Below are positions 3,457 through 11,011 of a stretch of DNA of 23,628 nt, one piece after another. Source of the stretch: a virus; IMG/VR virus record IMGVR_UViG_3300046010_004909, positions 1 to 23,628 of that record. The stretch is one strand, 5' to 3'. Position 1 is the stretch's first letter. The number at the start of each line of letters is the position of its first letter. The translations under genes and the position numbers were made by a program. Under the pieces are notes generated by a model. The model worked only from the letters and a program-made list of their open reading frames with translations. It had not been told where the DNA came from and made no database searches.

Positions 3457-4850
3457 GCCTGTCAGATTATCGCAACCTTATCGCCAAGAGCCATGGCGCA
3501 TTTGTGCCAGTCGGCTTTGAAGGTGACTTTGACCTTCCGTCATCGCTGTTTCCGCACCAAAAGGCCGCTGTTGAATTTAGCCTTCGCGCTGGATCTAGCG
3601 CCATGTTTCTGGACACCGGACTGGGCAAGACACGTTCCGCCCTTGCATGGGGTCAAGAGGTTGTCAGCCGCACGAATAAGCCTGTCCTGATGCTGGCCCC
3701 GCTTGGCGTCACTCGCCAGCACAAGACCGAGGCTGACGACATCGGCATTGATGCTTGTGTCTCGCGTGACGGTGGACCGCAAGATGCGCGCATCGTCATT
3801 GCCAATTATGAGCGCTTGCACCTATTCAACCCGTCTGACTTTGCCGGCATCATCTTGGATGAAAGTTCGATCCTCAAGAGCTTTTCCGGCCAGACCACAA
3901 AGCGGCTGATCGAGGCATTTGCTCGCACGCCTTACCGGCTGGCCTGCACTGCTACGCCAGCGCCGAATGACCACACCGAGCTTGGCACTCACGCCGAGTT
4001 CCTTGGCATCATGACACGTGACCAGATGCTTATGCGTTGGTTCCTGCACGATAGCGCAGACACCGGCACATGGCGGCTCAAAGGCCACGGCGTGCGCCCG
4101 TTCTGGGATTGGGTGGCGTCATGGGCAAGGTGCGTTAGCAAGCCTTCCGATCTGGGCTTTTCGGATGCCGGCTTTGATATGCCTGAATTGAACATGCACC
4201 GCCATTTGGTCGCGGCTGACCGGACAAAGGGCAAGGGCGAAGAGAAGGACGGACAAGCCCATCTGTTCCGAATGCCCGATATGTCCGCCACGTCCGTGCA
4301 TCAGGAAAAGCGGCTGACATGCGAGGCCCGCGCTTCGATGGTTGCCCAGATTGTCGCCAACGAGCCAAACGAGCCATGGACGGTCTGGGTTGAGACTGAT
4401 TACGATGCCGACGCCATCATGGCGGCAATACCCGGAGCCGTTGAGGTGCGCGGTTCAATGACCGCCGAACAGAAAGAGGAACGGCTAACGGCATTTACGC
4501 AAGGCACAATTCGCGTCCTTGTGACGAAAGCAAGCATTGCAGGTTTTGGCCTCAACTGGCAGCATTGCGCCCGCACTGTCTTTGCCGGAATGAGCTTTTC
4601 CTACGAGGCATTTTATCAGGCCGTTCGCCGGCATTGGCGCTTTCGCCAGACCAGACCAGTCGATTGCCATGTGGTGTTTGCTGACACGGAAGCCGCCATC
4701 TGGGACGTTGTGAGCCGCAAGGCCGGAGATCACAACGCCATGAAACGCGAGATGACGCAGGCCATGGCCCGCGCTCATCGGACTGAGACCAGACTACATT
4801 CCTATGAACCTCAAAAGCCGGCAATTGTCCCGGCATGGATGACGCCATGA
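3453..4850 (+). CDS. SNF2-family DEAD/DEAH-like helicase
   Basis: This is a 465-residue superfamily 2 ATPase of SNF2 type. It has a Walker A DTGLGKT (54-60), a Walker B ILDESS (134-139), motif III TATPAPND (166-173), motif V VLVTKASIAGFGLNWQ (355-370) and motif VI QAVRRHWRFRQ (389-399), in which R-x-R-x-x-Q residues contact ATP. A variable insertion lies between the lobes. The canonical 'RxxRxGQ' has R in place of G (WRFRQ). Phage enzymes of this family probably remodel or translocate on dsDNA during replication or recombination. It starts with an ATG/GTG-type overlap on the DnaA-like gene and overlaps the methylase gene at its end, so the three are one translational unit. Confidence 0.9.
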   Translation: MSLSDYRNLIAKSHGAFVPVGFEGDFDLPSSLFPHQKAAVEFSLRAGSSAMFLDTGLGKTRSALAWGQEVVSRTNKPVLMLAPLGVTRQHKTEADDIGIDACVSRDGGPQDARIVIANYERLHLFNPSDFAGIILDESSILKSFSGQTTKRLIEAFARTPYRLACTATPAPNDHTELGTHAEFLGIMTRDQMLMRWFLHDSADTGTWRLKGHGVRPFWDWVASWARCVSKPSDLGFSDAGFDMPELNMHRHLVAADRTKGKGEEKDGQAHLFRMPDMSATSVHQEKRLTCEARASMVAQIVANEPNEPWTVWVETDYDADAIMAAIPGAVEVRGSMTAEQKEERLTAFTQGTIRVLVTKASIAGFGLNWQHCARTVFAGMSFSYEAFYQAVRRHWRFRQTRPVDCHVVFADTEAAIWDVVSRKAGDHNAMKREMTQAMARAHRTETRLHSYEPQKPAIVPAWMTP

Positions 4851-5752
4851 CCAACGCAGTCCTTGATCAGCACATTTCAAACCGCTTTGCCGCATATAAT
4901 GCCGACACGGTGGAATTTACCGCCACGATGCCGGATAGCAGCGTCGGCCTGTCCGTCTATTCGCCACCATTCTCGCAGCTTTACGTCTATTCCGAAAGCG
5001 AGCGCGACATGGGCAACGTTGCGGATCATGACGAGTTTGCAGAGCGCTATCGCTACCTTGTGCGTGAGCTTTTGCGCGTCACGAAACCGGGCAGGATTAG
5101 CGCGGTCCATTGCTCCGACCTGCCGACCAGTAAGCAGCGTGACGGCGTTATCGGGCTGTTCGATCTGCCAAGCCTCATTCGCCAAGTTCATGAGGATGAG
5201 GGCTGGGTTTATCATTCCCGCGTGACCATCTGGAAATGCCCCGTGGTAGAGATGACCCGCACCAAGGCGCATGGCCTGCTTTACAAGACACTGCGCACCG
5301 ATGGCAGCCGGGTTCGCGTCGGGATGCCTGATTATCTGATGGTGTTCCGCAAGGAAAGCGACGGCAAGACGCCAGAGCCAGTGACGCATGATCCCGGTGT
5401 TTATCCTGTTTCATGGTGGCAGGAAGCGGCATCGCCGGTCTGGACCACGATCGACCAGACAGACGTTCTGAATGTCGCCGTGGCCCGTGATGACAAGGAC
5501 GAGCGCCACCTTTGCCCGCTCCAGTTGGACGTGATCGAACGCGCCGTTCATCTGTGGAGCAACACGGATGATCTAGTCTACTCGCCATTTATGGGCATCG
5601 GATCGGAAGGCTATGTTTCGATCAAGCACGGTCGCAGGTTTGCCGGAACCGAGCTAAAGCCAGCGTATTTCAAGCAGGCCGTGCGCAATCTCAAGATGGC
5701 TGAGGATACCGGCACCGAGGGTGATCTTGTGTCAAAGATGGGGTTCGCATGA
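4847..5752 (+). CDS. Beta-class DNA methyltransferase (N4/N6 type)
   Basis: The start at 4847 (MTNAVLDQHI) gives the ATGA overlap seen throughout the operon. An ATG at 4835 is an alternative. The 301-residue enzyme carries the catalytic motif IV as SPPF (39-42) near the N-terminus and the AdoMet-binding motif as YSPFMGIGSEGY at about 245-256, followed by GTELKPAYF. This order (catalytic before binding) defines the beta class, which methylates adenine N6 or cytosine N4. The target recognition region lies between. No restriction endonuclease of a standard type is adjacent, so protection of phage DNA or regulation is likelier than a classical restriction system. The target site cannot be read from sequence. 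Confidence 0.88.
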   Translation: MTNAVLDQHISNRFAAYNADTVEFTATMPDSSVGLSVYSPPFSQLYVYSESERDMGNVADHDEFAERYRYLVRELLRVTKPGRISAVHCSDLPTSKQRDGVIGLFDLPSLIRQVHEDEGWVYHSRVTIWKCPVVEMTRTKAHGLLYKTLRTDGSRVRVGMPDYLMVFRKESDGKTPEPVTHDPGVYPVSWWQEAASPVWTTIDQTDVLNVAVARDDKDERHLCPLQLDVIERAVHLWSNTDDLVYSPFMGIGSEGYVSIKHGRRFAGTELKPAYFKQAVRNLKMAEDTGTEGDLVSKMGFA

Positions 5753-8563: not shown

Positions 8564-8616
8564 CCTAGCCCATGCGTCGCGTTGAAACCGTCATCAATGG
8601 CAAGAGGGGATACATC

Positions 8617-9141
8617 ATGGCTCGACCGCGCAAGAAGCTGAAAGAGAACGTCCGCCGCCACCCATCTGGTGAGATTGTCCGTGCTGACATGGGCGAAAAG
8701 CCAGAGGACGTTATCGCCATTGCCAGCCGGCAGCCGCATCGCAGGGGCAACACAGACCCGCGCGCTGGCTTCGCACATGGCCGGATGCTTCTCGGTGGCA
8801 TCATCACGCAACGCCAGTTTGAAGCGGCTGAGGTGTTCATGAAACGCGCTGTTGCCTACATGGCGCTTGTGTCTGGATCATTGCCTAGGTTCCCATCCGT
8901 ATCGGCTGACATGGTAGCGCGTGGCATTGCTTGCGCGGCTGAATTGACCGACGAGCGCATTGCACAAGTGCGATCAGATTACGCCGAATTGCAGGACGCT
9001 TTGACCGATGGCGGGATGCACGCGGCGGGCAATAGCTTGCTGGTCAGGGTGTGCATCATGGATCGTGACATCGTGGCGCATTCGGAGATTGGCGATTTCC
9101 GTTGCGCGCTGAATTGCATTGCTCACAGGCTGCGCATTTGA
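8617..9141 (+). CDS. Conserved hypothetical phage protein near end of early operon
   Basis: The start at 8617 (MARPRKKLKENVRRHPSGEI) follows AAGAGGGG at good spacing. A longer form from 8572 lacks a ribosome binding site. The 174-residue protein has a basic N-terminus, a central motif DPRAGFAHGRMLLGGIITQR then QFEAAEVFMKRAVAYM, and a helical C-terminal half. The 'Arg-rich start, G-x-L-x-x-G-x-I-x-x-x-Q-x-x-A-A' build recurs in alphaproteobacterial phages just before late genes. Its function is unknown to me, and a late regulator is only a positional guess. Confidence 0.6.
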   Translation: MARPRKKLKENVRRHPSGEIVRADMGEKPEDVIAIASRQPHRRGNTDPRAGFAHGRMLLGGIITQRQFEAAEVFMKRAVAYMALVSGSLPRFPSVSADMVARGIACAAELTDERIAQVRSDYAELQDALTDGGMHAAGNSLLVRVCIMDRDIVAHSEIGDFRCALNCIAHRLRI

Positions 9142-9265: not shown

Positions 9266-9497
9266 CTCACGGGTCATCTGGGGAGGGCTAGACCCTCTCC
9301 GTGAGTTTCGCCCGATATGGGCAACGAGTTGAGGCCCGGCAATGGACGCCACTTAGCCGGTCAAGAGCAAGGGAAGTGCCGCTCTTGCGCCTCAAGCTAA
9401 AACAAGACCTGCCACGCTTCGGCGCACCCCGGCGGGTTACTCATCAGGTTCGGGGCGCTTACGGCGATGGCCGGACCCCGACGCAAGCGACCATCGC
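9266..9497 (+). ncRNA. Candidate structured non-coding RNA with three-way junction
   Basis: Helices that can form on the + strand are: 9266-9270/9301-9305; 9280-9287/9293-9300 (eight pairs, one G-U); 9310-9313/9319-9322; 9329-9335/9389-9395 (TTGAGGC/GCCTCAA); 9336-9340/9356-9360; 9362-9368/9381-9387; 9406-9413/9431-9438 (eight pairs, two wobbles); 9415-9417/9422-9424 with a UUCG loop; 9450-9455/9476-9481; 9456-9460/9485-9489; and 9464-9470/9491-9497. Helices 9329-9395, 9336-9360 and 9362-9387 abut each other to make a three-way junction. The last three helices cross, implying a pseudoknot or alternative folds. All wobble pairs are valid only for a + strand transcript. No convincing protein is encoded here. 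The class is unknown; an HEARO/omega-RNA-like element is one possibility, but no IscB-type gene is present in the window. Confidence 0.6.
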
Positions 9498-9504
9498 GGC
9501 CTGA

Positions 9505-9687
9505 TCAATCCCGCGCAAGGCCATGGCGCTGATACATCGCCACAAGGATTGCCACGGTTCGGGATACGGGCATTGTGCCAGCCTCTAGCTTGGCGACGTG
9601 TTCGCGCCCTATGCCAAGCAGAAGGCCCCACTCTTTTTGAGTGAGGCCGAAATAGTGGCGGGTCGCTTGGAATGTGGCTGGGCTCAT
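9505..9687 (-). CDS. XRE-family helix-turn-helix regulator
   Basis: This is a 60-residue DNA-binding protein. The stretch MSPATFQATRHYFGLTQKEW followed by GLLLGIGREHVAKLEAGTMP is a clear XRE (Cro/C1-type) helix-turn-helix. It has the 'GLTQ.E...LLGI.R..V...E.G' signature and covers nearly the whole protein. There is no dimerisation or cleavage domain, so it is a minimal repressor or Cro-like protein. It is the last gene of a leftward three-gene unit and its start overlaps the middle gene by ATGA. The palindrome upstream of the unit at 10156-10170 is its most likely binding site, which would make it autoregulated. Confidence 0.85.
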   Translation of the reverse strand: MSPATFQATRHYFGLTQKEWGLLLGIGREHVAKLEAGTMPVSRTVAILVAMYQRHGLARD

Positions 9688-10400: not shown

Positions 10401-10613
10401 ATGAACACCGAACAGTGCCGGTTGCGTGTTGCTGCTATCCACGTTTTGCAGTCACGCCACATGCCATTGCAGTTTGATAGCCCATGGCTCGGTGAACGGT
10501 TCCAGATTGCCGGCTCTGTCTTGCCCGATGAATGGCAATTTGGCCAAAGCGAACAGATCAAAGCCCGTTACGTGTCATGGCGCAGGCATAAGGGCGCATT
10601 GAGGTTCAAGTGA
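10401..10613 (+). CDS. Hypothetical 70-residue basic protein
   Basis: The ATG at 10401 is preferred to an upstream in-frame one at 10368 because it follows the micro-ORF stop with minimal overlap. The protein begins MNTEQCRLRVAAIHVLQSRH and is basic, with a C-terminus KARYVSWRRHKGALRFK that could contact nucleic acid. I do not recognise a family. The first 15 bases of the gene are identical to the first 15 of the next gene, the small terminase. It overlaps that gene by a TGATG junction. Confidence 0.55.
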   Translation: MNTEQCRLRVAAIHVLQSRHMPLQFDSPWLGERFQIAGSVLPDEWQFGQSEQIKARYVSWRRHKGALRFK

Positions 10614-11011
10614 TGAACACCGAACAGCCGTTTGACGATAAGAAAGCACGGTTCGTTCAGATCATTGCTGACGGTGGAACGCTTCGCGGGTCTGCCGCTG
10701 AACTCGGAACGACAACCACGACGCTAAAGCGCTGGTTGCGGGAAGATGAGGAGTTGCGTGCCCATTACGCGTGCGCGCGCGAGGATCAGGCAGACAGCTT
10801 TGCCGATGAAATCATCGAAACATCGCGTGACGCATCGCTTGACCCTAACGACCGACGCGTTCGGATCGACGCTCTCAAGTGGGCAGCCGGCAAGCGCAAG
10901 CCAAAGGTCTATGGCGACAAGCTGGCCATCGGCGGCGCTGATGATCTAGCAGCTATTCAGGTTCAACAGGTTCATCGTGTCATCGTCGATCCTAAGCATT
11001 CCAACGGCTAG
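10613..11011 (+). CDS. terS: Terminase small subunit
   Basis: This is a 132-residue protein. The N-terminal part contains a helix-turn-helix (ADGGTLRGSAAELGTTTTTL then KRWLREDEELRAHYA). It is followed by the family motif SFADEIIETSRDASLDPNDR and RIDALKWAAGKRKPKVYGDK, which is characteristic of phage small terminase subunits. The protein recognises the phage DNA to be packaged and regulates the large subunit as a ring-shaped oligomer. The start is the ATG of a TGATG junction at 10613. Its 3' end overlaps the large subunit gene by 35 bases, tight coupling typical of terminase pairs. Confidence 0.88.
   Translation: MNTEQPFDDKKARFVQIIADGGTLRGSAAELGTTTTTLKRWLREDEELRAHYACAREDQADSFADEIIETSRDASLDPNDRRVRIDALKWAAGKRKPKVYGDKLAIGGADDLAAIQVQQVHRVIVDPKHSNG

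Follow-up and report, generated by a model that had tools for sequence, protein, structure and literature searches.

A divergent relative of the abiF RNA between the early and late genes of a phage, and its possible role as an antidote to AbiF

What is encoded by the 232 bases at 9266-9497 that separate the early from the late module of this phage? The stretch lies in IMG/VR record IMGVR_UViG_3300046010_004909, analysed over positions 1-23,628 and referred to here as the window (23.6 kb; IMG/VR records are often fragments). The window carries early genes on the + strand, followed by the non-coding stretch, three small genes on the - strand, and then the genes for the small and large terminase subunits and the portal. 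The closest annotated relatives of its terminases are those of EBPR podovirus 2 and a Sulfitobacter phage, and this similarity points to an alphaproteobacterial host. The window also contains an orphan type II-kind DNA methyltransferase gene (4835-5752), which may serve in counter-defence, possibly in anti-restriction. An open reading frame overlapping the stretch, 9301-9504, had no Pfam or PHROG match, and a protein-coding reading of 9266-9497 was therefore rejected. The features of the region are:

8572-9141, + strand: phrog_15385 gene (PHROG match, no function assigned), immediately 5' of the non-coding stretch
9266-9305, + strand: 5' stem-loop, CTCACGG 9266-9272 with CCGTGAG 9299-9305, enclosing an inner hairpin (sequence and fold; no homologue found)
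9307-9327, + strand: recurrent boundary hairpin, TTCGCCC-GATAT-GGGCAACGA (absent from shuffles; recurs in many phages)
9329-9395, + strand: candidate three-way junction, flanked by the boundary hairpin on its 5' side and the abiF RNA on its 3' side (minimum free energy and centroid folds; no homologue found)
9399-9445, + strand: abiF-family RNA, core 9407-9437 (RF03085, 27 bits; model R1, 56.2 bits)
9450-9497, + strand: candidate H-type pseudoknot (stems present; at chance level in shuffles)
9505-9687, - strand: helix-turn-helix protein gene, one of the three small - strand genes
10610-11011, + strand: terminase small subunit gene (PF20901, phrog_1482), start of the late module

The stretch as a single fold

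An earlier note on this DNA had read the stretch as one elaborate RNA of unclassified kind. The stems it named do exist in the sequence: TTGAGGC at 9329-9335 is complementary to GCCTCAA at 9389-9395, the UUCG-capped domain is present with its wobble pairs U-G 9410-9434 and G-U 9406-9438, and at the 3' end TCGGGG 9450-9455 / CCCCGA 9476-9481 crosses GCGATGG 9464-9470 / CCATCGC 9491-9497. However, when compared with dinucleotide shuffles, the minimum free energy of the stretch was unexceptional on the + strand (z = -1.14; 26 of 200 shuffles equally good) as well as on the - strand (z = -1.34; 18 of 200), and an H-type pseudoknot of at least equal length arose in 30 of 300 dinucleotide shuffles (10%). 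Thus, a single elaborate fold was not established, and one 232-nt RNA fold was rejected because its stability was no better than that of shuffles on either strand. The stems of the three-way junction appear in both the minimum free energy and the centroid fold, but are not significant against shuffles, and the crossing stems of the 3' pseudoknot are real complementarities at a frequency equalled by chance; homologue searches found none for either element, and phage and plasmid sequences gave no blastn match to the stretch. Support for the predicted 5' stem-loop is limited to one sequence.

What does have homologues and covariation is a known RNA, the abiF RNA, lying beside a recurrent boundary hairpin. 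The idea of one unclassified RNA was accordingly given up, and the broader claim that the + strand encodes structured non-coding RNA between the early and late modules holds in the form of these two elements. The note had further considered a HEARO/omega-RNA, likewise non-coding, structured and a few hundred bases long. This reading is not supported: the Rfam scan showed no HEARO match at E values up to 5, and a search for PF14239 (RRXRR, IscB/IsrB-type) across the 23.6-kb record, possibly a fragment, gave no match.

An abiF-family RNA at 9399-9445

The covariance search that the earlier note had proposed returned RF03085 in the window at 27 bits, below the gathering score of 37 bits, with E=1.2e-4 for this genome alone and only 0.5 in the full Rfam scan of the whole window. 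We reached the family through an array in L262 that weakly resembles window 9399-9448; a core pattern was derived from the two, and its matches, which Rfam assigns to the abiF RNA, share AACAA-ACCCGCC-A-CGC-loop-GCG-CACCCC-GGCGGGU-UUnnUUAU. The window copy consists of a single-stranded flank AAAACAAG, the stem ACCUGCC/GGCGGGU, a CGC/GCG stem closed by a UUCG loop, the bulge CACCCC and a single-stranded tail UACUCAUC. All 10 base pairs of RF03085 form in it, giving a two-stem hairpin with an internal loop of one base on the 5' and six bases on the 3' side. The conserved 11-nt apical loop CUCUCAACGAU is absent, with UUCG at 9418-9421 in its place, and the shortfall in the RF03085 score coincides with this replacement: relatives with the standard loop scored 49-55 bits, and relatives overall 37-55 bits. 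A covariance model, R1, built from 28 relatives with the window left out, matched the window once, at 56.2 bits (E=2.6e-15, a value flattered because the relatives, mostly over the Rfam cut-off, were for the most part collected by the pattern derived from the window and L262; the RF03085 score is free of this bias). The covariance match fell on the + strand only, in agreement with the strand direction that the wobble pairs had suggested for this element.

Collection of homologues, likewise called for by the earlier note, showed that 30 of the 50 viral records searched contain relatives exceeding the Rfam cut-off (records partly pre-selected by the pattern). In the family alignment, helix 1 showed double-sided changes at five of its seven pairs. 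The percentage of paired positions is biased because the rows were partly selected for pairing; the pattern did not dictate the pair changes at the outer positions or those in the array copies of L111, L153 and L292. Furthermore, intermediates (L332, L329, L338 and L262) link the window to clear members; in L332 the copy is nearly identical to that of the window, is also capped by UUCG and lies immediately 3' of a tRNA-like 3' end.

Could a GC-rich hairpin have matched by chance? A score under the Rfam cut-off and the whole-window E of 0.5 would allow it, but the R1 match, the near-identical copy in L332 and the agreement of flanks beyond the stem strongly disfavour coincidence, which we regard as extremely improbable. 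Consistent with family membership, RF03085, represented by RCd22 of Clostridioides difficile (AbiFr), shares with the window copy a 6-7 bp outer stem, an unpaired 5' A, a 3-bp inner stem, a 6-nt 3' bulge starting with CA and ending with C, an A-rich 5' flank and a U-rich 3' flank. It differs in its loop (CUCUCAACGAU versus a UUCG tetraloop) and bulge (CAAAUC versus CACCCC), and RCd22 has two motifs where the window has a single one with no abiF gene alongside. Thus, judged by sequence and predicted pairing, the identification of 9399-9445 as a divergent relative of the abiF RNA, rather than a member at the curated threshold, is well supported. The UUCG loop could reflect a changed or lost partner.

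Solitary copies in phages

The window record had no PF07751 (Abi_2) match and hence no adjacent abiF gene. Abi_2 was found in one of the 50 viral records searched, among which 44 with an RNA match were counted and 34 of these extend at least 1.5 kb on each side of the RNA, a comparison to be read with the proviso that Abi_2 models may miss remote toxins. In the exception, L356, the toxin reading frame begins a few bases 3' of the RNA. All seven GenBank phage genomes tested that carry an abiF RNA lacked Abi_2 anywhere in the genome. A core-pattern scan of 398 Pseudomonadota genomes gave five matches, too few for statistics, of which one was convincing: a bacterial abiF RNA immediately followed by an AbiF gene (L472). 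A more divergent related RNA was seen in an alphaproteobacterial genome (L477), at a distance of 161 nt on the 3' side of an Abi_2 reading frame; Abi_2 was present in 4 of 58 Alphaproteobacteria genomes. Toxin-linked copies (L373, L472) agree with solitary ones in both the core and the flanks (AACAA..., UU..UU).

L356 demonstrates that AbiF pairs can travel in a phage or prophage contig, and the window RNA might accordingly be the decayed remnant of a former toxin-antitoxin pair. Yet stem, bulge and flanks are retained in many unrelated toxin-less phages, and compensatory changes are present, which makes decay improbable. The occurrence of a toxin-less abiF RNA in dozens of unrelated phages suggests, though it does not prove, that the RNA serves them to disarm AbiF defence.

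The phages with an abiF RNA have Aeromonas, Rhizobium, Bradyrhizobium, Salicola and Synechococcus as hosts, in addition to uncultured phages. In CGphi29 the RNA lies between early genes and terminase, as in the window, and in other phages within tRNA arrays or between structural (capsid) genes, positions that fit an RNA serving the phage. The abiF sRNA of Synechococcus phage S-CREM1 is, like the window copy, solitary and located in a non-coding/tRNA region of a genome without Abi_2; it differs in its standard loop, its score above the cut-off and its setting in the tRNA array of a T4-like myophage. The accessible part of its description (PMC9964418) draws no link to AbiF neutralisation. In the same phage (L385, 1031-3006), tRNAs, wcaG, manA and abiF RNAs adjoin in one RNA array, paralleling the hairpin-bounded arrays described below.

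T-runs (GGCGGGTTTTTTATT) follow many of the solitary copies, which sit just past stop codons or between genes, as would be expected if the hairpin were an intrinsic terminator or a protector of RNA 3' ends that shares sequence with the abiF RNA by chance. The window copy, however, has no T-run (GGGTTACTCATC; tail TTACTCATC) and is not among the called terminator-like sites, and a terminator needs neither an invariant CACCCC bulge, nor an antitoxin-like 11-nt loop, nor a conserved AACAA flank upstream. We consider a terminator or end protector unlikely.

The boundary hairpin and neighbouring RNA modules

The boundary hairpin at 9307-9327 had no match in 100 shuffles. In the syntenic relatives L002 and L003, the flanking genes are ~67% identical and the non-coding stretch differs save for TTCGCCCGATnGGGCAACGA; an attempt to reach homologues of the stretch through the neighbouring gene and the terminase was abandoned, those relatives having other modules at that position. 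The hairpin recurs in phages and prophages, mostly of Alphaproteobacteria and, where the organism is named, mostly rhizobial. Some hairpin counts contain chance coding matches (e.g. RPMGNE-type codons), and we therefore discuss non-coding cases only. These copies follow tRNAs or lie between RNA-like modules, and the combinations of modules between them vary among phages. In the L242/L262 array the stem is swapped to AGG/CCT with the outer TTCG...CAACGA retained. Directly upstream of hairpin-bounded arrays, five phages (L269, L273, L279, L293 and L310) encode NusG-like antiterminators (PF02357, phrog_25909), and the same slot is occupied in others by DUF6456-like, DUF6362-like or uncharacterised proteins, and in the window by phrog_15385. 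Possible roles of the hairpin are processing, antitermination or a site of module exchange or recombination; the most plausible view is that it marks the limits of RNA arrays or serves in their processing or antitermination.

These neighbours bear on whether the window RNA might have a different phage role unrelated to AbiF, for instance in late-leader regulation or in antitermination, acting jointly with the hairpin at 9307-9327. Its location at the early/late junction, the NusG-like genes adjoining the array in the five related phages, and the listing of the S-CREM1 RNA as an sRNA with no assigned role, as far as the accessible text of PMC9964418 goes, are compatible with such a function. 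Most solitary copies, however, lie away from hairpins of this type, in tRNA arrays and between capsid genes, and we rate a role of this kind as quite unlikely.

Further elements were noticed in passing. A tRNA-like unit with the acceptor-like stem TGATGTAG...CTACATCA occurs at L115:4337- and L128:7242- (both in minus orientation); the L115 unit appears to contain a second tRNA-like sequence, and ARAGORN called no tRNA in the L115/L128 unit. In the syntenic relative L002, the phrog_15385 gene is separated from the non-coding array by a reading frame (2240-2809) that, by eye, resembles GIY-YIG proteins. We also observed a widespread phage RNA, termed RNA Y, with five helices in interlocking pseudoknots (L132:2297-2475, L002:2919-3077, L318, L319, L320, L392-L468 and others). 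Its covariation is strong: in its alignment 92.7% of cells were paired versus 76% in shuffles, with double changes at 17 pairs. Rfam 15 has no entry for RNA Y except for a hammerhead-like core, an insertion seen in roughly half of its copies. RNA Y is positioned in tRNA arrays or ahead of terminase genes; it is circularly permuted in Enterobacter phage SDFMU_EhYP (L320). Of hammerhead and RNA Y neither was found in the window; in the relatives L002 and L003, RNA Y occupies the syntenic position. It is probably more novel than the abiF RNA of the window. Near one RNA Y copy, L415:1982-2122 matched YrlA (Y RNA-like, RF02553) at 45 bits, below the cut-off.

A possible antidote without its toxin

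In bacteria, the abiF RNA is the antidote to AbiF (Abi_2), a toxin directed against phages. AbiF is a HEPN ribonuclease that forms an RNA-protein complex (PMC12737573); the ancestor of Cas13 is a relative of it (PMC12737573, PMC12165695). In C. difficile as well as E. coli, the abiF RNA RCd22 binds and neutralises the toxin, acting both in cis and in trans (PMC12373285). What is observed across the phage family is conservation of stem, bulge and single-stranded flanks, and absence of toxin genes next to the RNA. We favour, with somewhat better than even confidence, the view that the non-coding RNA array of the late region yields a stand-alone antitoxin RNA directed at the host's AbiF, which it would neutralise. 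The phage would have retained the antidote RNA without the toxin in the non-coding region ahead of its late genes; upon infection or induction, the hairpin RNA would be freed from a + strand transcript of the region. Like the cognate RNA, and in the manner of a type III-like toxin-antitoxin pair, it would then bind to AbiF, whether encoded by the host or by a rival or resident prophage, and restrain the ribonuclease, so that an antidote-only phage would gain protection. From family membership we infer the step to counter-defence, including transcription, AbiF binding and benefit to the phage. If AbiF binding depends on the loop, it would fail in the window copy because the conserved 11-nt loop is absent.

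Replacement of a host RNA antitoxin by a phage RNA is an established escape route: PhiTE pseudo-ToxI acts in this manner against ToxIN, as reported in the accessible part of PMC3475682, and differs in involving another toxin and RNA family, and escape mutants rather than a standing feature of many phages. Lactococcal phage sk1, which by the title of a paper protects another phage from AbiF, had no RF03085 match up to E=10 and was rejected as independent support for abiF RNA escape. More speculatively, and in our estimate doubtful, non-coding regions between early genes and terminase in these phages could be modular stores of counter-defence RNAs, comprising solitary RNA antitoxins like the abiF RNA, tRNA-like molecules and large pseudoknotted RNAs, with the boundary hairpin as the site of module exchange.

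If the antidote reading is true, it would provide a function for an RNA so far given in phages only as an sRNA with no assigned role, and would be readily testable, the RNA being ~50 nt and the toxin a single gene. Phages infecting many different hosts would then share a simple, widespread RNA-based answer to AbiF, a toxin family thought ancestral to Cas13.
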